Assembly: GCA_024236215.1 (NCBI GenBank)
Contig: JACKKX010000002.1
Span: 62,001 to 126,000 of the forward strand
DNA length: 64,000 nucleotides
Origin: Novosphingobium sp.
Lineage (GTDB): Bacteria > Pseudomonadota > Alphaproteobacteria > Sphingomonadales > Sphingomonadaceae
Direction of reading: 5' to 3'
Positions 8,021 to 22,934 of this stretch are shown in pieces. Positions within the stretch are counted from its first letter, which is position 1. Each line of letters starts with the position of its first letter. The notes below the pieces were generated by a model. The model ran no database searches. It was not told the DNA's origin and saw nothing but the letters and a program-made list of their open reading frames with translations. A program made the position numbers and the translations under genes.

Positions 8021-9567
8021 CAGAGCAGCGCCTCGATCAGCCGTGGCCCCTTGTGCGCCAGCGCATCGGCTAGTGCGGCGCGGAAACCCTCCGCCGTGTC
8101 AACCCGCGTGGCCGGCACGCCCATGCCCTCGGAAATCTGCGACCAGTTAATCGCGGGATTGCGCAGGTCGAGCATCTCGAGCGCCTTGGGGCCGGGGTTC
8201 TGCACGCCCACCCGCATCAGCTCGATGTTGAGGATCGCGTAGGAGCCGTTGTTGAGGATGATGGTGGTGACGTCGAGCTTTTCTCGCGCCATCGTCCACA
8301 GCGCCTGGACGGTGTACATCGCCCCGCCATCGCCGTGCAGGGCGATCACCTTGCGATCCGGGCAGGCCACCGCCGCGCCCACCGCGAGCGGCAGCCCCTG
8401 GCCGATCGAACCGCCGGTCAATTGCAGCCAGTCGTGCTTTTTCGCCCCTGCGCAGGCCAGCATCGAGGCACCGCCCTGGGTTGCACCTTCATCGGAGACG
8501 ATCGCGTTCTCGGGGAGCAGTTCGGCCAGGATTGCCCCGAGATTGGCGCTGTTGAGCGCGCCTTCCTGCGCCGGAAAGCTGCCCGGCTGCTGGATCAGCG
8601 CGGGTTCGGTGGGAGCATCCAGCGCGCTCGCCACGCTGGAAAGCGCATGCAGCGCGTCTTCGCGCAGCGATGCCAGACGAACCAGAGTAGCTCCCTCGGG
8701 CGAAAGCCAGCTAGGCTTGCCGGGATAGGCGAAGAACGAGACCGGCGGCTCGGTGCCGCAGAACACGATGGTCCTGAATTCGGCCAGATAGGCTTGAGCC
8801 TGCTCGCCGAAATAGGGCAGCTTCTCCACCGCGACCCTGCCAACGCCGCGCTGATGGCGGGTGGCAAAGGTTTCGGCGATCAGGCGGCAGCCGGCGGCCG
8901 CCGCGATCCGCCCGGCTTCGATCAGCGCCTCTTCGCGCAGCGCCCGTCCGCCCAGGAACAGGCACTTGGGTCCTTCGCCGTCCTTGAGCGCAGCGGCAGC
9001 GGCGGCGATTGCATCGCCGGTGGTCCTGGCCGCGGGCGCGAGGGCAGGGGGGGCGACCGGCGACGACCCCTCGCTCCAGGCGTGATTGGCCGGGACGATC
9101 ACCGTCGCGACCTTGCCCGGATAGCCTTGCGCCACGGCAAAGGCCTCGGCCCCGGCATGGGCCAGATCGCGTTCGGAGGTGGATGTGCGCACCCAGTCCG
9201 ACATCGGGCGCGCAACGCCTTCGGTATCGGAGGTGAGCGGGGCGTTGAAATGCTTGTGATAGGTCGCGTGTTCGCCGACCATGTTGATGATCGGGCTGCC
9301 GGCCTTGCGCGCGTTGTGCAGGTTGGCAAGGCCGTTGCCCAGTCCCGGACCAAGATGCAGCAGGGTCACCGCGGGCTTGTCGGCCATGCGCCCATAGCCA
9401 TCGGCGGCGCCGGTCACCACGCCTTCGAACAGTCCCAGGATCGAGCGCATCCCGTGCTGGCGGTCGATCGCCGCGACCAGCTGCATTTCCGAGGTGCCGG
9501 GATTGGCGAAGCAGACCTCCACCCCGCAGGCGTGCAGCGTCTCGATAAAGGCTTCGGCTCCGTTCAT
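8020..9567 (-). CDS. Thiamine diphosphate-dependent enzyme (acetolactate synthase / benzoylformate decarboxylase family)
   Basis: A 515-residue ThDP enzyme with the usual three domains. The N-terminal PYR domain has catalytic Glu48 in LGLFEGVVTGAADGYGRM. A degenerate central domain follows. The C-terminal PP domain has the metal/ThDP motif GDGGAMYTVQALWTM...LNN. The length fits non-assimilatory members. It is commonly auto-annotated as acetolactate synthase large subunit, but no regulatory ilvN subunit is adjacent, and the coupled gene encodes a 2-hydroxyacid oxidase. A 2-oxoacid decarboxylase or lyase role is therefore at least as likely. The start at 9567 follows GGGAGG; the frame continues upstream to 9627 without an equivalent ribosome site. 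Confidence 0.85.
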   Translation of the reverse strand: MNGAEAFIETLHACGVEVCFANPGTSEMQLVAAIDRQHGMRSILGLFEGVVTGAADGYGRMADKPAVTLLHLGPGLGNGLANLHNARKAGSPIINMVGEHATYHKHFNAPLTSDTEGVARPMSDWVRTSTSERDLAHAGAEAFAVAQGYPGKVATVIVPANHAWSEGSSPVAPPALAPAARTTGDAIAAAAAALKDGEGPKCLFLGGRALREEALIEAGRIAAAAGCRLIAETFATRHQRGVGRVAVEKLPYFGEQAQAYLAEFRTIVFCGTEPPVSFFAYPGKPSWLSPEGATLVRLASLREDALHALSSVASALDAPTEPALIQQPGSFPAQEGALNSANLGAILAELLPENAIVSDEGATQGGASMLACAGAKKHDWLQLTGGSIGQGLPLAVGAAVACPDRKVIALHGDGGAMYTVQALWTMAREKLDVTTIILNNGSYAILNIELMRVGVQNPGPKALEMLDLRNPAINWSQISEGMGVPATRVDTAEGFRAALADALAHKGPRLIEALL

Positions 9568-9634
9568 TGCATTTCCCTCCCGTTTGCGGCGAGTTTTGAG
9601 GAGAGCGCGGGCAAGTGCAAGTGCCAATCACGCG

Positions 9635-10309
9635 TCAGGGTATATCTTCGGCCCGGATCGCGCGGACCACATCCTTGAACGCCCGGGTCGCTACGGCTTC
9701 GATCGCGCCCATGCGCGGCGCGAACGGCTTGCCGTAACCCGCAAAGGTGGTCAGGCCTTCCATCGCAGCGGAGATGAACACCACAATCGCGGTGCGCTTT
9801 TCCGGCGGCAAATCCGGGCGCATCTCGGCAACGATCTCCTCCAGCGGAGCGCGGGCACGGGCGTAGAGTTCGTGCATCCTCTCGAACACGAAGGGATCGT
9901 GGTTGGACAAGGCCCAGAGCTCGGGAAAGAAGTGGGTGGTCTTTTGGGTGCGAAGGTCTTCGAGCACCAGTTCGCAATAATAGTCCAGCCGGACCGCGGG
10001 CTCGAGTGTCGGGTCCTGCAGAATCTCGATGAATTCCAGCTCGTAGCTGCTGATCACGGCTTCGAGCAGTGCCCGGACCAGATCTTCACGGCTCGGGAAA
10101 TGGTATGTCAGATTGCCCAGCTTCATTCCGCATTCGGCGGCGATGCGGCGCATGGTCATGGCGCGATAGCCTTGCTCAACCAGCAGATGCAGCGCCGCCC
10201 GGAGAATCTCCTCGCGCGTCTCATGTCCCTTCTGATAGCCGCCCTCGCGTGGGGGAAAGGACAGGTCGGCGATGGTGATGGCACGAACTTCCCGTTTGGT
10301 TTCCTGCAT
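9635..10309 (-). CDS. TetR family transcriptional regulator
   Basis: A 224-residue repressor-type protein. A 25-residue N-terminal extension precedes a TetR helix-turn-helix at about residues 28-75 (TREEILRAALHLLVEQGYRAMTMRRIAAECGMKLGNLTYHF in outline). The ligand-binding C-terminal domain is helical. It is encoded divergently from the amine dehydrogenase operon (10441 onward) and upstream of the ThDP/hydroxyacid oxidase pair on its own strand, so it may control either or both. The ATG at 10309 is preferred because GGGAG lies five bases upstream; a GTG two codons earlier is possible. The ligand is unknown, and an amine, aldehyde or acyl-CoA would be natural. Confidence 0.85.
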   Translation of the reverse strand: MQETKREVRAITIADLSFPPREGGYQKGHETREEILRAALHLLVEQGYRAMTMRRIAAECGMKLGNLTYHFPSREDLVRALLEAVISSYELEFIEILQDPTLEPAVRLDYYCELVLEDLRTQKTTHFFPELWALSNHDPFVFERMHELYARARAPLEEIVAEMRPDLPPEKRTAIVVFISAAMEGLTTFAGYGKPFAPRMGAIEAVATRAFKDVVRAIRAEDIP

Positions 10310-10339
10310 TTGCACTCCCGCTTTGATCGCTGGAATTTT

Positions 10340-10440: not shown

Positions 10441-11610
10441 ATGCGATCCACGCCGTTCGCGCTCGCGCTGTTGCTGTCAGCCTTTGCGGGGTCGCCGCTA
10501 TCCGCTGCTGCGCCGCCTCCCCTGCCCGAAGAAGCGCTTCCCGCCGTGGCGACCCTGCCCGAAAACTACCCCAAGAGCTGGGTGCTGGTGCACGATTTCA
10601 ACTTCAACGCGATCCTCGATGGGCGGGTGGTGGTGGTCGATACCGCCGATACCGCCCAGCCGCTCAAGGGAATCATCCGCACCGCGCAGTTCGGCAACCT
10701 GCTGTTCGCGCCCGACAAGCACGAGTTCTACACCGCCGAAACCTTCTATTCGCGCCTGACCAGGGGCGAGCGCACCGATGCGATCACCCTATGGGATTCG
10801 GTCACCCTTCAGCCCAAGGGCGAGATTGTGCTGCCCGGCGGCAAGCGCCAGCAGGCGGTAACCTACAACGGCACGTTCCAGTTCGTGAACGGACACAAGT
10901 GGGCGGTAGTGGCCAATTTCACGCCGGCCCAGTCGGTCACCGTGGTCGATCTGGAAGGACGCAAGGTTCTGAGTGAGATCGACCTGCCCGGCTGCTCGCA
11001 TTTCTATCCCACAGGCGCACGCGGCTTCACGACATTCTGCGCCGACGGTTCGCTGACCTCGATCCAGCTTGACGACAAGGGTCAGGTGGCGAGCTCCAGG
11101 ACCGTCGCAGACGTCCAGGATGTCGAGAATCAAGCCCAGTTCCAGAACGCGGCGATGGCTGGCCAGACGGCCTGGTTCGTCACCTTCCGCGGCCAGCTCA
11201 AGGGCTATGACCTCTCCGGTCCGGTCGCCAGACCGCTGCCCGGCAATCTTTCGGTCGGCACGGCCGAGGGCGGTCAGCCCGAATGGCGCCCGGGCGGCTG
11301 GCAGGTGATCGCGGCGGGCCCCAAGGGTCTGCTCTACGTGTTGATGAGCCCCTACGGCAAGGAAGGCAGCCACAAGGATGGCGGGACCGAGGTCTGGGTG
11401 ATCGACCCGGCCAGCGGCAAGCGGGTCAGCCGGATCGCGCTGCAAGCCCATTCCGCCTCGATCGGGGTGACCAACGAGACCACGCCGCATCTGATCGTGA
11501 CCCGGGCTGATGCCGGGATCGACGTTTACGATGCGGTCAGCGGCGCGTTTGTCCATTCGCTGGGTAACACAACCGCGTTCAACCCGATCCTTGTAACTCC
11601 GGTTCCGTGA
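10441..11610 (+). CDS. aauB: Amine dehydrogenase heavy (alpha) chain, MauB/AauB family
   Basis: A 389-residue exported protein: an N-terminal signal peptide of about 24 residues (FALALLLSAFAGSPLSA) followed by a seven-bladed beta-propeller of the amine dehydrogenase heavy-chain family. This subunit pairs with the TTQ-bearing light chain in a periplasmic alpha2-beta2 enzyme that oxidatively deaminates a primary amine to an aldehyde and ammonia. Visible family features are VLVHDFNFNAILDGRVVVVDT, FAPDKHEFYTAETFYSRLTRGERTD and the C-terminal blade VWVIDPASGKRV. The ATG has GGGGAG seven bases upstream. It opens the operon aauB-E-D-A and its stop overlaps aauE. The light chain is what argues for an aromatic amine dehydrogenase rather than methylamine dehydrogenase. 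Confidence 0.92.
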   Translation: MRSTPFALALLLSAFAGSPLSAAAPPPLPEEALPAVATLPENYPKSWVLVHDFNFNAILDGRVVVVDTADTAQPLKGIIRTAQFGNLLFAPDKHEFYTAETFYSRLTRGERTDAITLWDSVTLQPKGEIVLPGGKRQQAVTYNGTFQFVNGHKWAVVANFTPAQSVTVVDLEGRKVLSEIDLPGCSHFYPTGARGFTTFCADGSLTSIQLDDKGQVASSRTVADVQDVENQAQFQNAAMAGQTAWFVTFRGQLKGYDLSGPVARPLPGNLSVGTAEGGQPEWRPGGWQVIAAGPKGLLYVLMSPYGKEGSHKDGGTEVWVIDPASGKRVSRIALQAHSASIGVTNETTPHLIVTRADAGIDVYDAVSGAFVHSLGNTTAFNPILVTPVP

Positions 11611-12098
11611 TGGCGGCGCTGAGCCTGTTCCTGGCCCTGCTGCTCTGCGCTTCGGCCTTGCACAAGGTGCTTGCGCGCGAGCGGCTGGCACTGGTTGTGG
11701 CGCGGCTGGCCAGCGTGGCGCCACCGCTTGGCGCGGTGCTGCTGGCGCTGGCGGCAACGATCGAGGCGCTGGCCGGGCTGGCCCTGCTGGTCCCGGCGCT
11801 GCACACCGGCGCGGCACTTGCCGCCACGGCCTTGTGGAGCGGCTATGCCCTGGCCCTGCTACGCCATCGCGGCCAGACGCTTGACTGCGGCTGCGATTTC
11901 GCTGCGCGCGAGCGGCCGGTCGATCTCTTCGCGATCCTGCGCCCGGTGCTGCTGGCACTGCTTGCCGCCTGGTCGGGTGCGAGCGGGCCCGGCCCGTGGA
12001 CCCTGGAAGTCCCCTTCGCCGCTTTGGCACTTGCCGCGCTGTGGTTCGCTGCGGGTGAACTGCATGCCATCCCTCAGGTCAGGAGTATCCGCCGGTGA
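11610..12098 (+). CDS. aauE: MauE/AauE membrane protein, amine dehydrogenase maturation
   Basis: 162 residues, four predicted membrane helices, and the characteristic Cys-Gly-Cys in TLDCGCDFAARERP between helices 2 and 3. The MauE family (DoxX-like membrane proteins related to DsbD/VKOR-type redox proteins) is required with MauD for formation or stability of the disulfide-rich light chain. The ATG at 11610 overlaps the aauB stop (TGATG); a GTG one codon earlier is also possible. Overlap with the next gene is GTGA at 12095-12098. The gene sits between heavy-chain and MauD genes, as in known aau and mau clusters. Confidence 0.88.
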   Translation: MAALSLFLALLLCASALHKVLARERLALVVARLASVAPPLGAVLLALAATIEALAGLALLVPALHTGAALAATALWSGYALALLRHRGQTLDCGCDFAARERPVDLFAILRPVLLALLAAWSGASGPGPWTLEVPFAALALAALWFAAGELHAIPQVRSIRR

Positions 12099-12688
12099 TC
12101 GTTGCTTCGCAGATGCTGCTTTGGGTGGCGGTGATCGTGCTGGGGGTGCTGGTCGCGGCGCTCGCGCGGCAGGTTGGTATCCTGCACGAGCGGATCGCAC
12201 CGGCCGGTGCGCTGACCCTGCACCAGAACGTCAAGGTGGGCGAGGTGCCCACCCCGCTGGAGCTGCGCACGATCGATGGCGGCTCGATCACCGTCGGCGG
12301 CAAGCGCGAAGGGCGCAGCCAGTTGGTGTTCTTTGCCGCGCCCGATTGCCCGGTCTGCAAGAGCCTGCTTCCGGTGCTGCGCACCTCGGCGCGCGACGAG
12401 GCGGACTGGCTCGAGGTGGTGCTGGCGGGCGATGGCGATGAACGCGCCTATCGCGCGATGCTCGATGCGCAGCAAATCGCGGGCATCCCGCTGGTCCTGT
12501 CCGAAGCGCTGGGCCGTTCGTTCGGGGTTTCCAAACTGCCCTATGCGGTGCTGATCGACGAGGCGGGGCGGCTCGCTTCGCTGGGTCTCGTCAACAGCCG
12601 CGAACATCTTGAAAGCCTGTTTGAAGCCAAGGAGCGGGGCGTCGCCTCGATCCAGGATTTCCTCTCGCGCCGTAACGGGGGAGCATGA
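12095..12688 (+). CDS. aauD: MauD/AauD thioredoxin-like disulfide protein for amine dehydrogenase maturation
   Basis: 197 residues with one N-terminal membrane anchor (residues about 5-24) and a periplasmic thioredoxin-fold domain. The redox motif is Cys85-Pro-Val-Cys88 in FFAAPDCPVCKSLLPVL, and the cis-Pro region is SKLPYAVLIDEAG. MauD is needed for correct disulfide formation in the cysteine-rich light chain. The start is a GTG overlapping the aauE stop, with AGGAG ten bases upstream. The 3' end overlaps the light-chain gene by four bases (ATGA). Confidence 0.92.
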   Translation: MIVASQMLLWVAVIVLGVLVAALARQVGILHERIAPAGALTLHQNVKVGEVPTPLELRTIDGGSITVGGKREGRSQLVFFAAPDCPVCKSLLPVLRTSARDEADWLEVVLAGDGDERAYRAMLDAQQIAGIPLVLSEALGRSFGVSKLPYAVLIDEAGRLASLGLVNSREHLESLFEAKERGVASIQDFLSRRNGGA

Positions 12689-13233
12689 CCATGTCTGCAT
12701 TCGACACCTTTGCCGAAAAGCTCTCGCGCCGTCTCGCGCGCGGCACCTCGCGCCGTTCCTACCTCGCCTGGCTGGGAATGGCCGCGACCGGGGCGGCGGT
12801 GTTTCCGGTGCTGCCGGTCTCGCGCGCGGCGGCCCAGTCGCACGGCGGCGGCGCGGCGCGGCCGCCGATCACCTCGGGCAACCCGCAGGATCCGGGTGAC
12901 CGCGCAAGCTGCGATTACTGGCGCTATTGCGCGATCGACGGGTTCCTGTGCTCTTGCTGCGGCGGAACGGTCAACACCTGCCCTCCGGGGACCGAGATGA
13001 GCCCGATCACCTGGATCGGCACCTGCACCAATCCCGCAGACGGGCGCGCCTATGTGATCAGCTACAACGATTGCTGCGGGGTATCTTCCTGCGGGCAGTG
13101 CCTGTGCAACCGCAACGAAGGCGATCGTCCGCAGGTCCGTCCGCAATCGAACAACGATTACAACTGGTGCCTCTCGACCGAGAGCAGCATCTACAATTGC
13201 TCGGTCGCGGCGATTGTCGGGGTGGCCGAATGA
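12685..13233 (+). CDS. aauA: Aromatic amine dehydrogenase light (beta) chain, TTQ precursor
   Basis: A 182-residue precursor of the catalytic subunit. A Tat-type signal (SRRSYLAWLG, residues 22-31) precedes a mature domain with 14 cysteines after residue 75. The tryptophans that form tryptophan tryptophylquinone are Trp110 (SPITWIGTC) and Trp161 (NDYNWCLS). The general-base aspartate is Asp129 in SYNDCCG. These fall one residue after the Trp109, Trp160 and Asp128 I recall for Alcaligenes faecalis AADH, and the total length is the same. It oxidises primary amines such as tyramine or phenethylamine. The ATG at 12685 overlaps aauD; a second ATG two codons later is possible. TTQ needs dedicated maturation, yet no mauG is in the window. 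Confidence 0.93.
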   Translation: MTMSAFDTFAEKLSRRLARGTSRRSYLAWLGMAATGAAVFPVLPVSRAAAQSHGGGAARPPITSGNPQDPGDRASCDYWRYCAIDGFLCSCCGGTVNTCPPGTEMSPITWIGTCTNPADGRAYVISYNDCCGVSSCGQCLCNRNEGDRPQVRPQSNNDYNWCLSTESSIYNCSVAAIVGVAE

Positions 13234-13715
13234 AGCCTTCGCGCGCAATGCTGGTAACGCTTGGCGCGAGCGCGCTGGTGCTGGCCGCGCTGCCTGGCGC
13301 AGCTCCCGCCGCACAGCCCGGCCCCAACGGCGCGACGATCTTCGCCCGCTGCGCTGCTTGCCACACCGCCACCGGGCGCGGGGTGCCCGGGGCCTATCCG
13401 CCGCTTGGGTCCGATTTCCGTGCGCTCGCCGTCAAACCGGATGGGCGGCGCTATCTGGTGCTCGCGGTAACGCGCGGCGTTTCCGGTCCTTTGGTGGTGG
13501 AAGGCAAGCCCTTCCGCAACGTCATGCCCGCCCAATCCGGGCTTGACGATGCCTCGGTCGCCGCGGTGCTCAACCACGTCGGCACCGTGATCGCCAAGTC
13601 CGGGCCGCCGTTCAAGGCCTTCACCGCAAAGGAGGTCGCCACCGCGCGGGCCAGCGGACAAGCCATTACCGCGGCCGATGTTGCCCGGCTCCATGCCACC
13701 GTGGGCGGGGGATGA
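13230..13715 (+). CDS. Monohaem c-type cytochrome (class I) of the amine dehydrogenase operon
   Basis: 161 residues, exported through a signal peptide of about 28 residues. One haem motif, CAACH at residues 41-45, is followed 54 residues later by a plausible axial Met99 in NVMPAQSG, typical of class I cytochrome c. The ATG overlaps the light-chain stop (ATGA), and its own 3' end overlaps the next cytochrome gene by four bases. The gene is in the place where mau clusters carry an electron acceptor. No amicyanin or azurin gene is present, so this cytochrome is the best candidate for receiving electrons from TTQ. A maturation role is possible. Confidence 0.85.
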   Translation: MKPSRAMLVTLGASALVLAALPGAAPAAQPGPNGATIFARCAACHTATGRGVPGAYPPLGSDFRALAVKPDGRRYLVLAVTRGVSGPLVVEGKPFRNVMPAQSGLDDASVAAVLNHVGTVIAKSGPPFKAFTAKEVATARASGQAITAADVARLHATVGGG

Positions 13716-14197
13716 AGCGGGCGGCGCGCCTTGGCCTGTTTACCGCGCCGGTGCTGCTGCTTGCGGCATCGGTCGGTGCCGGGCAGGGCAGCGCGCAGTT
13801 TTCGGCGATGCCGGGCGTGGCGCATCCGGCGCGGGCGCGGGTCGATTACATGCTCAAGTGCCAGGGCTGCCATCATCCCGATGGCGGCGGCAATCTGGTC
13901 AACACCCCGCCGCTGCGCGGTGAGGTGGCGAAGTTCCTGGCCGTGCCCGGCGGACGTGAGTTTCTGGGCCGGGTGCCTGGGGTCGCCAGCACCGACCTCG
14001 ACGATGCCCGGCTGGCCGAGCTGCTCAACTGGACTCTCTACACCTTCGACCGGCAGCACCTTCCCGCCGGATTCCAACCCTATTCGCCCGGCGAGCTCGC
14101 CAAGCTGCGCAAGGCGCCGCTCCGGCTTGAGCGCGCCGAAATGCGCGCCGGCCTGGTCCGGGCGATCGAAAATCACCAGAAACGCGCCAAGAACTAG
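13712..14197 (+). CDS. Second monohaem c-type cytochrome-like protein, unusual distal ligand
   Basis: 161 residues with a signal peptide of about 28 residues and one haem-binding motif CQGCH (residues 50-54) followed by a second His (CQGCHHPDGGG). Downstream of the haem site the only methionine is Met144, close to the C-terminus and outside a normal Met-ligand context, so axial ligation may not be His/Met. The rest (VPGVASTDLDDARLAELLNWTL, GFQPYSPGELAKLRKAPL) resembles small periplasmic cytochromes next to quinoprotein dehydrogenases. It is translationally coupled to the first cytochrome (ATGA). Function is inferred: electron transfer or participation in TTQ formation. Confidence 0.78.
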   Translation: MKRAARLGLFTAPVLLLAASVGAGQGSAQFSAMPGVAHPARARVDYMLKCQGCHHPDGGGNLVNTPPLRGEVAKFLAVPGGREFLGRVPGVASTDLDDARLAELLNWTLYTFDRQHLPAGFQPYSPGELAKLRKAPLRLERAEMRAGLVRAIENHQKRAKN

Positions 14198-14215
14198 CCA
14201 ACAGGGAGGCATATC

Positions 14216-16423
14216 ATGCGCAATTCTCGCACCGGCAAGCTGCTGCTACCCAACCTCGCCATTGTCGCCATGCTCGCGGCAAGCCCGGCCCATGCCCAGA
14301 ACAACGCGGATGAAGATGGCGCCGGTCCGGGCGAGATCGTGGTGACGGCGGCGAAGCGATCGGAAAACCTCCAGTCGGTCCCGATCGCGATTTCCGCGAT
14401 TGGCGGGGATGCGCTGTCCAAATCGCGGGTCGATACGGTGGATTCGCTGGTAACCAAGGTGACCAACCTCCAGCTGACCGCGATCGTCGGCGACAACACC
14501 CCGATTTTCGCGCTGCGCGGGGTGTCGATGTCGGACTATTCGCTCAATCAGGCGAGCCCGGTCGCGACCTATTACGACGAGGTCTACAAGGGCAACTTCG
14601 CCTTCCTGGGCGTGGCAATGTACGATCTTGAACGGGTCGAGGTGCTCAAGGGGCCGCAGGGCACGCTCTATGGCAAGAACACCACCGGCGGGGCGGTCAA
14701 TCTGATTACGCGCAGCGCCAAGCTGGGCGAGACCAGCGGTTACCTCAGCGCCGGCTACGGCAATTACAACCGGGTCGACGTCAGCGGCGCGGTCAACGTG
14801 CCGCTGGGAGACAAGGCGGCGCTGCGCGTGGCGGGCACCTATTCGCACGCCGATGGCTGGTTCAAGAACCAGCTCCCCGGAATGCCCGATCTGGCCGAGG
14901 TCAAGGAATACGGGGTGCGCGCCTCGCTCTATTTCGAGCCCGCCGATGGCGTCGATTTCACCCTGCGTGCCTCAACCTCGTACCAGAACCCGCACAACTA
15001 CGGGATCTATGCCACGCCCGAAAGCGTCAACCGGCCCGGCCTCAGCACCCGCCAGATCGAATCCGACGTGCCCGACCGGCGCCGCGCGCGCACCTGGTCG
15101 GTGGCATTTACCGCCAATGCCGATCTTTCGGACACCATCAAGCTGACCTCGATCACCTCTTACGACAAGGGCTCGCTGCACTTCGTCGAGGATACCGATG
15201 GCACCGCGACCAAACTGCTCGAGATTCCCTATGACGACGAAGCCAAGCAGTTCGCTCAGGACCTGCGCCTGACCAGCAATACCGGCGGGCCGTTCGATTT
15301 CATCCTCGGCGCCTATTATGCCCATGAGCAGATCTACAATTCGAGCAATTTCAGGATCCTGCTCGATACCGACATCAACGGCGACAATCTTGTCGACGAT
15401 CAGGATTGCGCCGATGCGCTGCCCTATGTCTGCCAGATCAAGAACAGCTTCGATCAGACCAAGGACAGTTTCGCGCTCTATACCGATCTCAAGTACGCGC
15501 TCAGCGACAGCCTGACGGTGCGCGGCGGCCTGCGCTACACCCATGACAAGGGGCGCCAGTACAACTTTACCTCCGACGCGCTGGGGGTGAGCGGTGCGTT
15601 CATCGCCAACCTGATCCCGCAGTCGGAGCTGAAGTATTCGACCGACAATCTCTCGGGCAAGATCGGGCTCGACTACAAGTTCGGCAGCGGCAACATGATC
15701 TATGCCAGTGTCAGCCGCGGCTACCGCGCGCCCAGCTTCAACGCCCAGGCCTTCTTCGATCCATCCGAACTGTCGATTGCCAAGGCGGAAAAAGTCACTG
15801 CCTATGAAGTGGGTGCCAAGACCCAGTTCGCCGACCGGCGGGTGACGCTCAATATGGCGGCGTTCTACTACGATTACCGCAACCAGCAGTTCATCAATGT
15901 CGATCCCGGCACCGCAGCGCAGACCCTGCTCAACATCCCAAAGTCGCGGATCTACGGTGCCGAGGCCGACCTGACAGTGCGGGCGAGCGACATGCTGAGC
16001 TTCCACGCCGGGCTTGGTCTGCTTTCCACCAAGATCATCGCCGGCACGGTCAGCGGCACCAACGTGGCCGGCAACCGGCTGTCCAATGCGCCCAGCATGA
16101 CCTTTAACCTGGGGGTCGATCTGACGCTGTTCGATGGCGGCGCGGGCAAGCTCTCGCTTCATCCCGAAATGTCGTATTAGTCGAGCCAGTTCTTCGAGGT
16201 GGTCAACGTCCCGCGGCTGCGGCAGGATGGCTATGCCCTGCTTGGCGGGCATATCGACTGGGAAAGCGCCGATGGCCGCTTCAACGCCTCGATCTGGGGC
16301 AAGAACCTGGCGAACAAGTTCTACGTCACTTCCAGCGTCGACCTGCTGGCGGGCTGGGGCTTCGATTACAATCACATCGGTGCGCCGCGGACCTATGGTA
16401 TCACGCTGGGCGTGAAATACTGA
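14216..16423 (+). pseudogene. TonB-dependent outer-membrane receptor interrupted by an in-frame TAG
   Basis: A reading frame of 735 codons encodes a complete TonB-dependent receptor: signal peptide (residues 1-27, ending AHAQ), TonB box EIVVTAAKR, plug domain (LERVEVLKGPQGTLYGKNTTGG) and a 22-strand-type barrel ending ITLGVKY with the usual C-terminal aromatic residue. The frame is broken by one amber codon at 16178-16180 (residue 655, context MSY-stop-SSQFFEV). The same frame continues unbroken to 16423 with barrel sequence. A CAG-to-TAG change is the simplest explanation, since Gln fits the family here. The truncated product would lack about 80 residues and the C-terminal assembly signal. 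It follows the cytochrome gene by 18 bp (GGGAGG ribosome site), so it probably imported the operon's substrate. Confidence 0.8.
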
Positions 16424-16451
16424 GTCGGCCGCGAGCCGGAAGGAGAGGACA

Positions 16452-17855
16452 ATGTCGGACTACAAGCTGCTGATCGGCGGCAGGCTCGTCGATGGCGATG
16501 CCAGCATGGATGTGATCAACCCGGCGAGTGAGGAAGTGCTGGCCGCGTGCCCACGCGGCTCGGAGCGGCAAATGAACGAGGCCGTGGCCGCCGCCAAGGA
16601 AGCTTTCAAATCGTGGCGCAAGGTGCCCATGGCCGAACGGCGCGCCATGGTGATGAAACTGGCCGACGCGGTTGAAGCGCGGGTTGAGGAATTCGGCAGG
16701 TTGCTGACCCAGGAACAGGGCAAGCCGCTGGCCGAATCGACCGCGGAAATCGCCTATACCGCCGCCTTCCTGCGCTACCTCGCCTCGCTCGATCTTGAGA
16801 ACAAGCTGATCGAGGACAACGAGAACCGCCGGGTCGAGATGCGGCGCAAGCCGCTCGGCGTGGTCGGCTGCATCATTCCGTGGAACTTCCCGGTGCTGAT
16901 CGTTGCCTTCAAGGCGCCGGTCGCGCTGCTTGCGGGTAATACCATCGTGATCAAGCCCGCGCCGACTACCCCGCTCACCACCCTGCGGCTGGGCGAGCTG
17001 ATTGCCGATATTTTCCCGGCGGGTGTGGTCAATATCGTTACCGATCAGAACGATCTCGGCGGGGTGCTCACCACCCATCCCGATGTCGCCAAGATCAGCT
17101 TCACCGGTTCGACCGAGACCGGCAAGAAGGTGATGGCCAGCGCCGCCAGCTCGATCAAGCGGATCACGCTTGAGCTGGGCGGCAACGATGCGGCAATCGT
17201 GCTGGGCGATGTCGATCCCAAGACGGTCGCGCCGGGGATCTTCGGCGGGGCGACGATGAACGCCGGTCAGGTCTGCCTCGCAATCAAGCGGGTCTATGCC
17301 CACGAATCGATCTACGACGAGCTGTGCGACGAGCTGGCCAAGCTGGCCGATGCGGCGGTGGTAGACGATGGCCTCAAGCAGGGCGCCCAGATCGGGCCGC
17401 TGCAGAACAAGATGCAGTATGAAAAGGTCAAGGGCTTCCTTGAGGATGCCCGCGTCAACGGAACCATCATCGCCGGCGGAGTGGTGGAGGACCGGCCGGG
17501 CTACTTCATCCGCCCGACCATCGTGCGCGACGTTTCCGACGGGACCATGATCGTCGATGAAGAGCAGTTCGGTCCGATCCTCCCGGTGATCAAGTTCAGC
17601 GATGTCGACGATGCGCTCGAACGCGCCAATGCCAGCCCGTGGGGGCTGGGCGGCTCGGTCTGGTCGACCGATCGCGACAAGGCCTACGACATTGCCTGCG
17701 AGGTCGATTCCGGGACGGTGTGGATCAACAAGCACCTCGATTTCGGGCCCAACATTCCCTTTGGCGGCGCCAAGCAATCGGGGATCGGGGTCGAGTTCGC
17801 CGAGGAAGGGCTGTATGAGTTCACCCAGATCCAGGTGATCAACGAAGCGCGATGA
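16452..17855 (+). CDS. NAD(P)-dependent aldehyde dehydrogenase
   Basis: 467 residues with the full aldehyde dehydrogenase fold. It has the substrate/cofactor segment [13 protein letters not shown], the GxTxxG nucleotide motif in [11 protein letters not shown], general base Glu241 in [11 protein letters not shown], and catalytic Cys275 in [11 protein letters not shown]. It should oxidise the aldehyde made by the amine dehydrogenase to the acid, in the cytosol. The start follows AAGGAGAGG. It lies 28 bp after the receptor reading frame and overlaps the CoA ligase by four bases (ATGA), which ties it to the amine operon. Exact substrate unknown. Confidence 0.93.
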
Positions 17856-19480
17856 CCCAGCTGAGCTATGCCAGGGGCGCCACCGAACCGCCGCTGCTCG
17901 AACACACGATCGGCGCCGCGCTTGAGCAGGCCGCCGATCGCTGGGGCGCGTCGCTTGCGCTGGTTTCGCGTCATCAGGGTGTGCGCTGGACCTGGGCCGA
18001 GCTCAACGCCGAGGTCGATCGGATCGCTACCGGACTGCTCGAACAGGGCGTGCTCAAGGGTGACCGGGTGGGAATCTGGGCGCCCAACTGCGCCGAATGG
18101 ACCGTGATCCAGTTTGCCACCGCCAAGATCGGCGCGGTGCTGGTCACGATCAATCCGGCATACCGGGTCAGTGAGGTGGAATACGCGCTGAACAAGGTGG
18201 GCTGTTCGGTGCTGGTCACCGCGCCCAGCTTCAAGACCAGCGACTATATCGCCATGCTGCGCGAGCTGGGGCCGGAAAAGCTGCCCCATCTCAGGCTGAT
18301 GGTCTCGCTGGGCGAAGGCGCGCACGAAGGCTTCATGCCCTGGGCGAGCCTGCGCTCGCAGCCGGATCGCGGCGCGCTCGCCGCCGTGGGCGGGGTGCTC
18401 GATCGCAACGATGCGATCAACATCCAGTTCACCAGCGGCACCACGGGTTTTCCCAAGGGCGCGACGCTGACCCATCGCAACATCCTCAACAACGGCTATT
18501 TCACCGCCCGCACAATCAAGCTCGGGCCGGAGGACCGGATATGCATTCCGGTCCCGCTTTATCACTGTTTCGGCATGGTGCTTGGCAACCTTGCCGCGCT
18601 GACCAGCGGCGCGGCGATGGTCTATCCGGGCGAGGCCTATGATCCCAAGGCCGCACTGGAAGCAGTTCAGGCCGAGGGGTGCACCGCGCTCTACGGCGTG
18701 CCGACGATGTTCATCACCATCCTCAACCAGCCCGATCTGGCCAGTTACGACGTATCGAGCCTGCGCACCGGGATCATGGCCGGATCACCATGCCCGATCG
18801 CGACGATGCGCGCGGTGATCGACCGGCTCAACATGAGCGAGGTGACGATCGGCTATGGCATGACCGAGACCAGCCCGCTTACCACCCAGACCGCGACCGA
18901 CGACCCGCTTGAAGAGCGGGTCGGCACGGTCGGGCGCGTCCATCCCCATGCCGAGGCCAAGGTTGTCGGCCCCATGGGCGAAACCCTGCCGATCGGCGAA
19001 CAGGGCGAATATTGCTCGCGCGGCTATGCGGTGATGCTGGGTTATTGGGACGATCCGGCCAAGACCGCCGAGGCGATCGATGCCGATGGCTGGATGCATT
19101 CGGGCGATCTCGCGACCATCGATGCCAAGGGCTATGTGCGGATCACCGGGCGGATCAAGGACATGATCATTCGCGGGGGCGAGAACATCTACCCGCGCGA
19201 GATCGAGGAATTCCTCCTCACCCACCCTGAGATTGCCGATGCCCAGGTGTTCGGCGTGGCCGACGAGAAGTATGGCGAGGAAGTCTGCGCCTGGATCATC
19301 GCCAAGCCGGGCGCGGCGCTGGGCGAGGATGCGGTGATCGCGCACTGCAAGGGCAGGATCGCGCACTACAAGGTGCCGCGCTTTGTGCGGATCGTCGAGG
19401 GCTTCGCGATGACTGTCACCGGCAAGGCCCAGAAGTTCGAGATGCGCAAGACGATGGAAGCGGAGCTGGGGCGTGGCTGA
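17852..19480 (+). CDS. AMP-forming acyl-CoA ligase (fatty/aryl acyl-CoA synthetase)
   Basis: 542 residues of the ANL superfamily. The P-loop is [15 protein letters not shown] beginning at about residue 194, followed by [11 protein letters not shown] (A5), the hinge [19 protein letters not shown], and the catalytic lysine near the C-terminus in [13 protein letters not shown]. It activates a carboxylic acid with ATP and CoA. In this operon it would take the acid produced by aldehyde oxidation. The sequence is closest in style to medium-chain and aryl FadD/AcsM-like enzymes, but the specificity cannot be read. Coupled to the aldehyde dehydrogenase (ATGA) and to the first crotonase gene (GTG inside its last codons). 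Confidence 0.92.
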
Positions 19481-20267
19481 AGGACCCGAAGTGGAATTCA
19501 TGCGCTCCGAAGCCGATGGCGATGTTCTGGTCGTCACGCTGGACCGCGCGGACAAACGCAATGCCTTGTCCGCCGCGTTCATCGAGGAAATCGTTTCGCT
19601 GTTCGACTGGGTGCGCCAGGCCGAAGCGGTGCGCGCGGTGGTGGTACGGGCCGAAGGTTCGGTGTTCTGCGCCGGTCTCGATCTGATCGAACACCACCTT
19701 GAGGATCGCAGCGCGACCGATTTCATGTACATCTGCCGCCGCTGGCACGCCGCCTTCGATGCGATCCAGCACTGCGGCAAGCCGGTGATCGGGGCGCTCA
19801 ATGGCGCGGTGGTCGGCGGCGGGCTTGAGCTGGCATCGGCGTTCCATATCCGCGTGGCCGATCAGACCACCTATTTCGCCTTGCCCGAGGGGCAGCGCGG
19901 AATCTTCACCGGCGGCGGTGCCACGGTGCGGGTCGCGCGGCTGGTGGGCGAGGCGCGGATGATCGACATGATGCTCACCGGCCGGGTCTATACCCGCGAG
20001 GAGGCGGTTTCGGTCGGGCTGTGCCAATATCTGGTCGAAGGTTCGAGCATGGACAAGGCGATGGAGATTGCGCGCAAAGCTGCCCAAAATCCGCCGCTGT
20101 CGAACTTCGCGATCACTTCGGGGATCGCCCATATCGGCAACATGCCGGCTAATGACGCTTTTTACGCCGAAGCCTTCATCGCCGGGATCACCAATACCCA
20201 GCCGGCCTCGAAAGACCGGCTGGCGGCCTTCATGAACAAGACTGCGGCCAAGGTGCTCAATGACTGA
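19473..20267 (+). CDS. Enoyl-CoA hydratase/isomerase family protein (both catalytic Glu present)
   Basis: 264 residues, crotonase fold. The oxyanion-hole segments are SVFCAGLDL and [14 protein letters not shown]. The two glutamates of hydratases are present at the canonical 20-residue spacing, Glu119 in GGLELA and Glu139 in LPEGQRG, so hydration of a 2-enoyl-CoA is plausible. The start is a GTG overlapping the CoA ligase end; an ATG nine codons later is an alternative. It overlaps the next crotonase by eight bases. No acyl-CoA dehydrogenase or hydroxyacyl-CoA dehydrogenase lies in the operon, so the substrate may already be unsaturated or other enzymes come from elsewhere. Confidence 0.9.
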
Positions 20268-21051
20268 TCCCGACATGGCGCCGATCCTCAGCGATGAGGA
20301 CGGGCCGATCGCGCGGATCGTGCTCAACCGTCCGCGCGCGGGCAACAGTCTGTCGATGGAGCTGGTTTCGGCGCTGCGGGCCGAACTTGCCTTGCTGGCC
20401 GGGCGGACCGAGATCAAGGTGATCGTGCTGTCCGGTGCGGGCGGGCGGATATTCTCTGCCGGGCACGATCTCAACGAATTCAACGGGCAGGAGGACATGG
20501 ATTTCCTCCAGCGCGATTTTGCCGGGATCACCGCGCTGATGCAGCAGATCATGGCCCAGCCGCAAGTGGTGATAGCCAAGGTGGAAGGCGTGGCGACCGC
20601 GGCCGGGTGCGAGCTGGTCGCGGCCTGCGACCTGGCGCTGGCTTCCAGCGTGGCACGCTTTGCGGTTCCGGGGGTCAATATCGGCTTCTGGTGCCACACC
20701 CCGCAGGTTGCCCTGGCCCGCACCATCGGGCGCAAGCAGGCGATGATGATGCTTGCCACCGGCAAGCTGTTTCCCGCCAGCCATGCCCTGGCGATCGGGC
20801 TGATCAACGAGATTCACGAACCCGATGCGCTGGACGAGGCGACCGAGGCCTTGGCCGGGCAGATCGCTGGCAAGGCCGGTTCGGTGCTGCGCCGGGGCAA
20901 GGCGTCGTTCAACCGCCAGGCCGCGCTGCCGCTGGCCGATGCCTATGCCTTTGCCCGGCAGCAGGCGCTGGAGAACATCGTCGATCCCGATGCCCGCGAG
21001 GGGATCGCCGCGTTTATCGAGAAGCGCGAGCCGGACTGGCCCGGCGGATAG
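20260..21051 (+). CDS. Crotonase-family protein, ECHDC3-like, missing the second catalytic Glu
   Basis: 263 residues with crotonase fold. SAGHDLNEF and [17 protein letters not shown] are typical of the ECHDC3-like branch. Glu118 is kept, but the residue 20 positions later, where hydratases carry the second glutamate, is Gly138 ([13 protein letters not shown]). Simple enoyl hydration is therefore doubtful. A thioesterase, isomerase or other CoA-ester role is possible. It is the last gene of the amine operon; its ATG lies inside the end of the preceding gene. It ends three bases from a convergent ArsR gene. Confidence 0.88.
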
Positions 21052-21054
21052 CGA

Positions 21055-21372
21055 TCAGCAGACCGGGTTCTGGCTGTCGCAGATCAGGCACAGCGCATGA
21101 ATGATATCGCGCACTACCGGGTCCTTGAGGCTGTAGTAGCGTGTCTGCGCCTCACCACGGATGCCGACCACTCCTTCGTCGCGGAGCATGGCAAGGTGCT
21201 GCGACACCGCCGATTGCGACAGCCCGACCAGATCGACCAGCTGGGAGACCGAAGCCTCGCCCTCGTCGAGTCGGCACAGCATCAGCAGTCGTTCGGGATG
21301 GCTCATGATCTTGAGCCGCCCCGACATGGCGTTGGCGTTGGCCTTGAGATCGGAAAGGTCTGTCGGCTTCAT
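21055..21372 (-). CDS. bigR: ArsR-family redox/persulfide-responsive repressor (BigR/SqrR-like)
   Basis: 105 residues with a winged helix-turn-helix (SVSQLVDLVGLSQSAVSQHLAMLRDEG in outline). Two cysteines lie where BigR and SqrR have their persulfide-sensing pair: Cys33 in LMLCRLDEG and Cys98 in LCLICDSQ. There is no ArsR-type metal motif ELCVCDL. In the family, formation of a tetrasulfide link between the two cysteines releases DNA. The start follows GGAGG. It lies 66 bp after the rhodanese gene on the same strand and divergent from the persulfide dioxygenase, which matches the known bigR locus. The palindrome at 21824-21849 is the likely operator. Confidence 0.85.
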   Translation of the reverse strand: MKPTDLSDLKANANAMSGRLKIMSHPERLLMLCRLDEGEASVSQLVDLVGLSQSAVSQHLAMLRDEGVVGIRGEAQTRYYSLKDPVVRDIIHALCLICDSQNPVC

Positions 21373-21438
21373 ATCAGGCCCTCCACTTATGCAATTTCGC
21401 CAAGGTTGCAAGTTCGCCGCAACCGGCCACCGCAAGGC

Positions 21439-21849: not shown

Positions 21850-22010
21850 TCAATCACGATATTTGTGATTCGAGCCCCCTGTTCCGCCAGACCGCTCCCC
21901 CTCTTTATGGTATGGCGGAACAACCTGACGGCGATCCCGGCACTGCCTATCGGAGCCAGCGCTGGGGTCGCCGTTCAAGGATTGGAGCGGCCAGAAAGGG
22001 ACCTTCCGCA

Positions 22011-22934
22011 ATGACCGATACCGCACTTGCCGCCGCTGTCGCCCAGGCCGATGCCGCCCGCGCATCGGGCCGGATCCCGGCGGTGAAGACCTTCTTCGAC
22101 GAGGCGACTTTTACCGCGACCCACGTTGTCCACGATCCCGTGACGAAACGCGCGGCGGTGATCGATCCGGTGCTCGATTTCGACCAGCCCTCGGGCCGCA
22201 CCACCACCGCTTCGGCCGAGGCCGTCGCGGCCTATGTGCGCGACCAGGGGCTGACGGTGGACTGGCTGATCGAAACCCATGCCCACGCCGATCATCTTTC
22301 CTCGGCGCCCTACCTCCAGGTCGAGCTTGGCGGCAGGACCGCAATCGGCGGCGCGATCCGCACCGTGCAGGAGACCTTTGCCAAGGTGTTCAACGAGCCC
22401 GCCAGCTTCGCGCGCGACGGATCGCAGTTCGGGCACCTGTTTGCCGATGGCGAGACCTTCGCGATCGGCGACCTGCCCGCGATCGCGCTGCATGTTCCGG
22501 GCCATACCCCGGCCTGCATGGCTTACCTGATCGGGGATGCGCTGTTCGTTGGCGATACCCTGTTCATGCCCGATTTCGGCACCGCGCGGTGCGATTTCCC
22601 CGGTGGCGATGCCCGCGCGCTTTACCGTTCGATCCGCCGCCTGCTCGCCCTGCCGGGTGAAACGCGGATGTTCCTGTGCCACGATTACAAGGCTGAGGGT
22701 CGCGGCGAATATGTCTGGGAAACCACGGTCGCGGCGCAGCGCGCGGGCAACATCCATGTCCGCGACGGCGTGGGCGAGGACGAATTCGTCGCCATGCGCG
22801 AAGCGCGCGACAAGACGCTCGATATGCCGCGCTTGATCCTCCCCTCGGTTCAGGTCAACATCCGCGCCGGGATGTTTCCCGAGCCCGAGGAGAACGGCGT
22901 GAGCTACCTCAAACTGCCGCTCAATCTGCTGTGA
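22011..22934 (+). CDS. Persulfide dioxygenase-like metallo-beta-lactamase-fold protein (Blh/ETHE1 type)
   Basis: 307 residues. The metal motif THAHADHLSSAPYL, the later His in HVPGHTPACMAYL and Asp in FVGDTLFMPDFGTARCDFPGGDA, and the C-terminal MFLCHDYK are the iron ligands and substrate residues of ETHE1/Blh enzymes. These oxidise glutathione persulfide to sulfite. The frame is open from 21912, but the ATG at 22011 (after AAAGGGA) gives the N-terminus expected for the family. Overlaps the TauE/SafE gene by four bases (GTGA). Sulfite formed here would be exported by that neighbour. Confidence 0.88.
   Translation: MTDTALAAAVAQADAARASGRIPAVKTFFDEATFTATHVVHDPVTKRAAVIDPVLDFDQPSGRTTTASAEAVAAYVRDQGLTVDWLIETHAHADHLSSAPYLQVELGGRTAIGGAIRTVQETFAKVFNEPASFARDGSQFGHLFADGETFAIGDLPAIALHVPGHTPACMAYLIGDALFVGDTLFMPDFGTARCDFPGGDARALYRSIRRLLALPGETRMFLCHDYKAEGRGEYVWETTVAAQRAGNIHVRDGVGEDEFVAMREARDKTLDMPRLILPSVQVNIRAGMFPEPEENGVSYLKLPLNLL

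Follow-up and report, generated by a model that had tools for sequence, protein, structure and literature searches.

A TTQ amine dehydrogenase operon in Novosphingobium with a DmdD orthologue, possibly linking a methylthio-amine to methanethiol

In the 64,000 nucleotides of Novosphingobium sp. DNA that we analyzed (the window), 11 genes follow one another on the forward strand between 10441 and 21051, encoding the TTQ amine dehydrogenase proteins AauB, MauE, MauD and AauA, two cytochromes c, a TonB-dependent receptor, an aldehyde dehydrogenase (ALDH), a CoA ligase and two crotonases (Table 1). The first-pass annotation had named all of these genes and placed them on one strand, as we do, but had counted ten. 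Eight of the ten junctions are overlaps of 4 or 8 bases, and the others are one 18-base gap and a gap of 271 bases 5' of the ALDH gene; from the overlaps, we infer that the aau to crotonase genes form one transcript. No conserved operator emerged 5' of aauB, where the window has only an 18-base direct repeat and some relatives have palindromes.

Table 1. Features of the amine dehydrogenase locus and its neighbors, in window coordinates.
Feature	Position	Strand	Basis or remark
FMN-dependent 2-hydroxyacid (lactate-type) dehydrogenase	6854..8020	-	NF008398 503 bits, above cut-off 376
ThDP-dependent enzyme, PRK07586 type, benzoylformate-decarboxylase-like	8020..9573	-	NF005760 743 bits, above cut-off 363
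Divergent TetR-family regulator	9635..10315	-	syntenic in relatives
aauB, TTQ amine dehydrogenase heavy chain	10441..11610	+	PF06433 147 bits; start codon read at 10441
mauE-type membrane protein	11607..12098	+	PF07291 44.6 bits
mauD-type thioredoxin-like protein	12095..12688	+	TIGR02661 167 bits, cut-off 188.6
aauA, TTQ light chain (W110, W161, D129)	12685..13233	+	PF02975 165 bits; AADH clade 100/98
cytc1, monohaem cytochrome c, c552 type, conserved Met99	13230..13715	+	PF00034; Thermus c552 match
cytc2, monohaem c552-fold cytochrome without Met loop	13712..14197	+	3' of light chain
TonB-dependent receptor	14216..16180	+	premature in-frame TAG at 16178-16180
Aldehyde dehydrogenase	16452..17855	+	PF00171 501 bits; under the cut-off of all 25 NCBIfam models listed of 43
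AMP-forming acyl-CoA ligase, PRK12583 type	17852..19480	+	NF009233 807 bits, cut-off 832
Crotonase 1, DmdD orthologue	19473..20267	+	4izb 338 bits; 63.8% identity; pocket and clade
Crotonase 2, PRK08139-like	20260..21051	+	306 bits, cut-off 313
ArsR/BigR-like regulator, convergent, outside operon	21055..21435	-	NF033788 81 bits, above cut-off 55; BigR model 67.8, cut-off 155
Blh-type sulfur dioxygenase domain, neighbor	22005..22934	+	NF040641 381 bits, cut-off 625, C-terminal part of model

The arrangement is not a matter of chance. We compared 20 loci, the window among them, whose light chains are 70% or more identical (L101 and L106 were found via crotonase 1); most span about 10 kb on each side of the light chain. 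Best matches to window genes recover the TetR regulator and cytc2 in all 20, the TonB receptor and ligase in 18 each, cytc1 in 17 and ALDH in 16. The operon core thus recurs across Sphingomonadales, and this synteny upholds the earlier proposal that an amine dehydrogenase is joined to an ALDH and a CoA ligase. The outer-membrane importer assigned to the operon by the same annotation is likewise syntenic in relatives, but the gene in the window has a premature stop: its reading frame stays open past the TAG to 16423, and it encodes 654 amino acids where two full-length relatives have 742 and 749.

The amine dehydrogenase belongs to the aromatic (AADH) type, as first proposed. The light-chain tree, set beforehand as the test of this assignment, places the window's chain in a clade of 49 rows (100/98) that includes Alcaligenes faecalis AADH, and sets four methylamine dehydrogenase (MADH) references apart (100/100). 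Both TTQ tryptophans and the catalytic Asp129 are present, and none of the three varies across 19 aligned light chains. By raw PDB bits the top row is 3c75 (170 bits), an MADH precursor that includes its leader; when only the mature part is counted, AADH scores 155 bits and other MADH chains at most 127, and identity to the A. faecalis chain is 57.9% over 107 residues. The best PDB match of the heavy chain is also A. faecalis AADH (2h3x, 147 bits, against 127 for the best MADH). Curated MADH models are missed by both light chain (TIGR02659, 175.8 against a cut-off of 196.85) and heavy chain (TIGR02658, 153.7 against 454.45), which together with the tree rules out methylamine dehydrogenase. The cluster shares the heavy-MauE-MauD-light core of mau operons, whereas it has no mauF, amicyanin, mauJ or mauG and its light chain lies outside the MADH clade. 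The gene order in A. faecalis is aauBEDA, and the same order, along with the residue placement, holds here in a cluster without mauG; annotated plasmid clusters, those of P. aeruginosa and Cupriavidus among them, are also ordered heavy-E-D-light. Heavy and light chains, MauE- and MauD-type helpers and the TTQ residues are thus common to the two systems; in contrast to A. faecalis, the heavy chain here is more distant (147 bits), and a TonB receptor, ALDH, CoA ligase and DmdD follow in one operon.

The electron acceptor of the amine dehydrogenase is likely cytc1, whose Met99 is invariant in 17 aligned rows. The second cytochrome is of a different kind: all 58 loci have a Met-less protein of this type 3' of the light chain, and no Met is conserved across 28 aligned rows. 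The predicted structure of cytc2 (pLDDT 89) is nearest to 1c52, with a best E of 0.0025 and none at 0.001. A new protein family was considered and rejected, as 20 of 23 aligned members weakly match PF00034, unlike the window's own copy, and the model is c552-like. A MauG-family match is absent from 29 of 44 light-chain genomes, and a search for MauG elsewhere in the window's own genome gave no PF03150 match. No settled account of TTQ formation in the aromatic enzymes is known to us, and cytc2 may be a single-gene candidate for this step.

The earlier reading of the operon, an amine-to-acyl-CoA pathway with generic crotonases, stands for the ALDH and ligase wiring but missed the identity of crotonase 1. 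Sequence, tree and pocket identify it as an orthologue of DmdD, the hydratase that acts on methylthioacryloyl-CoA in DMSP demethylation. Against the solved reference 4izb (R. pomeroyi DmdD), crotonase 1 scores 338 bits at 63.8% identity, and it keeps both catalytic Glu residues and all six residues given for the methylthioacryloyl-CoA (MTA-CoA) pocket in PMC3660561 (L71, F86, C90, W93, I146 and N243). It falls in one clade with R. pomeroyi DmdD (23 rows, two pairs of which are one locus fetched twice; 99/96, with a program warning of long branches between this clade and the rest). F86 and C90 occur in 23 of 23 rows of the clade and N243 in all 22 readable ones, against 0 of 49 sister-clade rows for each. 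Crotonase 2, when aligned with crotonase 1, has Gly in place of the second catalytic Glu.

With a DmdD orthologue in the operon, the likely pathway shifts from the conversion of some amine to an acyl-CoA toward that of a methylthio-amine to methanethiol. On balance we lean toward an operon that breaks down such an amine, with 3-methylthiopropylamine, the decarboxylation product of methionine, as the most likely substrate. Its oxidation to methional and ammonia by the TTQ enzyme would take place in the periplasm, with electrons passed to cytc1; ALDH would convert methional to 3-methylmercaptopropionate (MMPA), and the ligase would form MMPA-CoA. A DmdC-type acyl-CoA dehydrogenase encoded elsewhere could then yield MTA-CoA, which crotonase 1, by analogy with R. 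pomeroyi DmdD, would hydrate and hydrolyze to methanethiol and finally acetaldehyde and CO2 (PMC3660561). The genome holds two candidate DmdC-type dehydrogenases, members of a broad family, that are 48.5% (L086) and 53% (L087) identical to a Marivivens DmdC-type gene; both also resemble 6ijc, which we take to be DmdC and which is the best PDB match of L086 (728 bits). Such a route would resemble DMSP demethylation (dmdA-dmdB-dmdC-dmdD) in its last enzyme, in the CoA ligase before it and in candidate DmdC-type dehydrogenases elsewhere in the genome. It would differ in drawing MMPA from an amine via an aldehyde and in using a ligase from a different family, and no dmdA turned up in the genome.

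The genomic setting of DmdD bears on this reading. In the window, its reading frame and that of the ligase share 8 bases. Of 15 distinct sphingomonad DmdD-clade loci, seven have the DmdD gene directly 3' of a ligase. Five of the seven (the window, L096, L101, L106 and L107) have aau genes, or the cytochromes that go with them, on the same contig; in the other two (L095 and L100), the contig starts at or in the ligase. In two of the 15 (L097 and L098), DmdD adjoins a dmdA that shares 80–84% identity with its dmdA-type counterpart in a Marivivens dmdA-dmdB-dmdC-dmdD-like cluster; the L097 dmdA reaches 356 bits against a DMSP demethylase cut-off of 410. In a third locus (L093, genome G163), it adjoins a gene 38% identical to that Marivivens gene, and five loci (L102, L103, L099, L104 and L105) have neither aau nor dmdA within reach. 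In two sphingomonads other than that of the window, the DmdD copy adjoining dmdA is 87–89% identical to crotonase 1. The window's own genome, G145 and G312 bear DmdD with dmdA matches of only 22–27% identity (22% for the best in the own genome, short of a DMSP demethylase), so MMPA should come from another source there. In searches that scored the best 6 or 13 candidates per genome at E 1e-60 or better, and so may miss further copies, an order sample of 396 genomes held DmdD in 4 and the light chain in 44, with both in 3 of the 4 (Fisher p 0.005, a plain test ignoring kinship). In a genus sample of 195, the light chain occurred in 75 and in 4 of 5 DmdD genomes (p 0.07, kinship again ignored).

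Some observations fit this picture less well. The operon ligase is not a curated DmdB, the 3-(methylthio)propionyl-CoA ligase (NF005426, 231 bits against a cut-off of 822); a closer ligase lies elsewhere in the genome (C2:190947-192536, 647 bits, still below 822), and the Marivivens ligase adjoining dmdD also misses this model (311 bits). There is no dmdC within the operon, and a search for an SBP56 methanethiol oxidase found no match. We counted these ligase, dmdC and SBP56 results against the methylthio-amine reading, together with the TonB premature stop, the scarcity of DmdD among most operon relatives, the genus-level co-occurrence, the five DmdD loci away from aau and dmdA, the activity of R. 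pomeroyi DmdD on crotonyl-CoA and the ThDP counts at lower identity. We counted for it the identity and pocket of DmdD, ligase–DmdD adjacency, dmdA-linked copies, dmdA-less genomes, order-level co-occurrence, candidate DmdC-type genes, two features of the divergent arm described below (the arm in G472 and the close ThDP orthologues) and the place of 3-methylthiopropylamine and 4-methylthio-2-hydroxybutyrate in DMSP biosynthesis.

An unlikely alternative is that the operon serves short alkylamines (C4–C6 or branched). These would pass via aldehyde and acid forms to acyl-CoA, and crotonase 1 would be a plain beta-oxidation enoyl-CoA hydratase. The core operon is more often seen without DmdD: among 18 light-chain loci that are at least 70% identical and not found via crotonase 1, just two, the window included, carry DmdD, which means that the core must also function in its absence. 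The ligase belongs to the fatty-acid type, PMC5395565 describes DmdB and DmdC as broad enzymes that prefer chain length, and PMC3660561 gives a rate of 42 per second for the hydration of crotonyl-CoA by R. pomeroyi DmdD, which makes a C4–C5 alkylamine substrate possible. However, crotonase 1 retains every pocket residue holding the methylthio group, three of which occur in none of the 49 related crotonases; CoA-ester hydrolysis by DmdD would waste beta-oxidation intermediates; and its close copies sit with dmdA.

Aromatic amines as in A. faecalis (phenylethylamine, tyramine, tryptamine, or benzylamine with a mandelate-type arm), leading to an aromatic acyl-CoA, seem to us improbable substrates. 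The AADH clade of the light chain, a divergent arm resembling a hydroxyacid dehydrogenase with benzoylformate decarboxylase and a feruloyl-CoA synthetase (276 bits) among the best PDB matches of the ligase would all suit them. Yet this reading leaves DmdD without a role, the best 25 of 110 ligase matches include no phenylacetate-CoA ligase model, and AADH itself has a broad substrate range. That two separate functions share a transcript, dmdD (and crotonase 2) having joined by chance insertion and DmdD serving MMPA from other sources, is very improbable: DmdD does sit with crotonase 2 away from aau in L102 and L103, and L048 lacks crotonase 2, but ligase–DmdD adjacency recurs in seven distinct loci, with the order kept down to 75% identity (L106), and the reading frames overlap in the window.

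The methylthio-amine reading may extend to the divergent arm. Its ThDP enzyme, whose PDB matches are benzoylformate decarboxylases, is a proposed 2-oxo acid decarboxylase, and with the hydroxyacid dehydrogenase it would probably, on weaker grounds, take 4-methylthio-2-hydroxybutyrate and 4-methylthio-2-oxobutyrate to methional. Published schemes of DMSP biosynthesis (PMC11306096 and PMC9135737) name both the hydroxybutyrate and 3-methylthiopropylamine. At locus L217 of G472 (94% complete, with dmdA beside dmdD and no light-chain match), the ligase and crotonase 2 genes are directly opposite those of the hydroxyacid dehydrogenase and the ThDP enzyme. ThDP orthologues of 75% identity or more occur in 6 of 14 DmdD-bearing genomes and in none of the 15 other genomes searched that bear the operon; when matches down to 43% are admitted, the counts are 6 of 14 and 6 of 15. 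With only 6 of 14, the arm is ruled out as a constant partner of DmdD. The fullest version, in which 3-methylthiopropylamine and the 2-hydroxy acid MTHB converge on methional and then methanethiol through an undescribed dedicated operon that shares DmdD with DMSP demethylation, with TTQ made by cytc2 without MauG, is a doubtful extension.

Our search found no literature on an aralkylamine dehydrogenase in Novosphingobium, most subscription papers lying outside it. If the methylthio-amine reading is true, methanethiol would arise outside DMSP demethylation, from a methionine-derived amine, via a periplasmic TTQ enzyme and the end enzyme of the DMSP pathway. Intermediates of DMSP synthesis would gain a catabolic sink, the presence of DmdD in bacteria without DmdA would be explained, and TTQ amine dehydrogenases would have wider roles. 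The MauG-free pattern also makes the route of TTQ formation in aromatic amine dehydrogenases testable.

The first of the two crotonases that end the operon is, by its sequence, DmdD, the methylthioacryloyl-CoA (MTA-CoA) hydratase. It matched PDB entry 4izb, which we take to be the Ruegeria pomeroyi DmdD entry, with 338 bits and 63.8% identity, and is 65% identical to the closest plasmid genes annotated as dmdD. Our choice of 4izb fits PMC3660561 by its point-mutant entry and by its kinship to 3HIN. Excerpts of that paper name Glu121 and Glu141 as catalytic in the R. pomeroyi enzyme and Leu71, Phe86, Cys90, Trp93, Ile146 and Asn243 as lining its pocket; in our alignment, crotonase 1 retains both glutamates and all six of these pocket residues. 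Across 89 rows, the DmdD clade (support 99/96, with a program warning of long branches at its base) retains Phe86 and Cys90 in 23/23 rows and Asn243 in all 22 readable ones, versus 0/49 sister rows for each of the three, and Ile146 is replaced by Leu in two Rhodobacterales rows.

The operon lies in a 3.08-Mb genome (window: contig C2, 62001-126000) and comprises 11 genes, all on the plus strand, with overlaps of 4 or 8 bases at 8 of 10 junctions. Every gene named in the first-pass annotation was found on that strand, although its count of ten falls one short. The TonB receptor frame carries a premature in-frame TAG, beyond which the frame runs open as far as 16423; this is either a genuine stop or a sequencing error. 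Among relatives, the receptor gene is full length at two loci (L101 and L106) and split into two frames at a third (L107). An 18-base direct repeat in two copies between the TetR gene and aauB is a possible operator.

Coordinates of the features discussed, in window positions
Feature	Start	End	Strand
FMN-dependent hydroxyacid dehydrogenase	6854	8020	-
ThDP enzyme	8020	9573	-
TetR regulator	9635	10315	-
18-base direct repeat, two copies	10334	10369	
Amine dehydrogenase operon	10441	21051	+
cytc2	13712	14197	+
TonB receptor frame	14216	16423	+
Premature TAG in receptor frame	16178	16180	+
Crotonase 1 (DmdD)	19473	20267	+
ArsR/BigR-like regulator, rhodanese, Blh-type dioxygenase, TauE-like permease	21055	23719	

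The amine dehydrogenase is of the aromatic (AADH) type, as first annotated: its light chain groups with Alcaligenes faecalis AADH rather than within methylamine dehydrogenases (MADH). In a 70-row tree of only 114 columns, it falls together with A. faecalis AADH and Pseudomonas aeruginosa aauA in a clade of 49 rows (100/98), and four MADH references form a separate clade (100/100). The heavy chain scores higher against AADH than MADH (147 versus 127 bits in PDB matches). For the light chain, the first PDB row is an MADH precursor (170 bits, leader included in the alignment); over the mature part only, AADH scores 155 bits and the remaining MADH chains at most 127. The window proteins fall below the cut-offs of both curated MADH models. 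The tree places a separate group of 16 sphingomonad TTQ light chains, about 49-52% identical to the window's, to the MADH side (L054-L058, L061-L065, L068, L070, L072, L073, L075 and L076); at these loci cytc2 is present but the ligase type of this operon is absent. The TTQ cluster on Novosphingobium aromaticivorans pNL2 (L180) adjoins genes for catechol ortho-cleavage and 3-oxoadipate, and two genomes (G501 and G505) each carry a single in-frame stop in the light-chain frame.

Because the terminal DmdD is preceded by an aldehyde dehydrogenase and a CoA ligase, with a primary-amine dehydrogenase in front, we infer 3-methylthiopropylamine as the substrate, which these three enzymes would lead towards MTA-CoA; all steps ahead of DmdD have this inferred standing. 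The sole step on this route without a gene in the operon is the 3-methylmercaptopropionyl-CoA (MMPA-CoA) dehydrogenase, and two DmdC-type genes lie elsewhere in the genome. The amine is named in schemes of DMSP synthesis in excerpts of PMC11306096 and PMC9135737; the former states that Crypthecodinium cohnii is believed to use a methionine decarboxylation pathway, none of whose genes is known. Convergent on the operon end is the regulator-rhodanese-dioxygenase-permease group (permease assigned by eye, with no model match), also present at L095 of the same lineage, which may handle sulfide from methanethiol.

Beyond the TetR gene, a divergent two-gene arm (lactate-type dehydrogenase, ThDP enzyme) occurs in the window and at two other loci (L048 and L222). 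The pair would suit conversion of 4-methylthio-2-hydroxybutyrate via 4-methylthio-2-oxobutyrate to methional. ThDP orthologues at least 75% identical occur in 6/14 DmdD-bearing versus 0/15 other operon-bearing genomes, and matches down to 43% identity in 6/14 versus 6/15; we regard the link between this arm and DmdD as moderate. In G472 (L217), no aau genes intervene and the two arm genes lie directly opposite the ligase and crotonase 2; in G560 (L218), an acyl-CoA dehydrogenase gene 71% identical to L086, one of the two DmdC-type genes, lies some 4 kb away from them.

A contig scan confirmed 95 relatives, and 80 loci were retained. Counted with the window and L093, the distinct sphingomonad loci inside the DmdD clade number 15, and 14 of these share one sphingomonad subclade. 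DmdD directly follows the operon ligase at seven (window, L095, L096, L100, L101, L106 and L107; at L095 and L100 the contig starts at or in the ligase), adjoins dmdA, 80-84% identical to the Marivivens gene, at two (L097 and L098), is paired with crotonase 2 away from aau at two (L102 and L103; in G312, the genome of L102, the aau operon is on a different contig) and has neither aau nor dmdA within reach at three (L099, L104 and L105). At the remaining locus (L093, G163), which groups among Rhodobacterales, DmdD adjoins a dmdA-like gene 38% identical to that of Marivivens; this Rhodobacterales-type dmdD in a sphingomonad-family genome looks like a horizontal gain. The Marivivens plasmid order is GcvT-like dmdA, AMP-binding, acyl-CoA dehydrogenase, dmdD. 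We did not find dmdA in the window's own genome, where the best match had 22% identity. In the order sample, DmdD occurs in 4/396 genomes, 3 with a light chain (Fisher p 0.005, kinship ignored), and in the genus sample in 5/195, 4 with a light chain (G000, G514, G145 and G470; p 0.07, kinship ignored); in the fifth, G472, dmdA adjoins dmdD (L223) and no light chain matched.

A Met-less monohaem cytochrome of the cytc2 type stands downstream of the light chain in 58/58 loci (L032-L085 among them). Past the start, no Met column reaches half of its 28 aligned rows, and the profile alignment lacks the loop bearing Met99 of cytc1, a residue retained in 17/17 cytc1 sequences; the predicted model (pLDDT 89) has Thermus c552 as its nearest structure. 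The cytc2 profile matched a gene in 6/6 AADH-type plasmid clusters versus 0/3 MADH clusters, but 5 of those 6 were among its 28 rows, so only L183 tests it independently. The three MADH clusters have mauG or a cytochrome c peroxidase in its place; MauG forms the TTQ of methylamine dehydrogenase, according to an excerpt of PMC6405878. Its family, PF03150, had no match in 29 of 44 light-chain genomes, the window's included, some of the 44 being incomplete. A role for cytc2 in electron transfer is equally possible; the open haem site and the adjacent MauG-free light chains make it a candidate for TTQ formation and a candidate MauG substitute.

The light chain (PF02975) is present in 44/396 genomes of the order and 75/195 of the genus. 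In relatives, whose MAG contigs are short, a gene was called by its best match to the window's genes over a span of about 10 kb. Of 20 loci (window included) with a light chain at least 70% identical, all 20 carry TetR and cytc2, 18 the TonB receptor, 18 the ligase, 17 cytc1, 16 aldehyde dehydrogenase, 5 crotonase 2 and 4 DmdD; two of these loci came via crotonase 1, leaving DmdD in 2/18 without them. Among 38 loci of lower light-chain identity, the ligase occurs in 7 and DmdD in none. From these counts, the amine-to-acyl-CoA core recurs as a unit in sphingomonads, with DmdD marking a subset.
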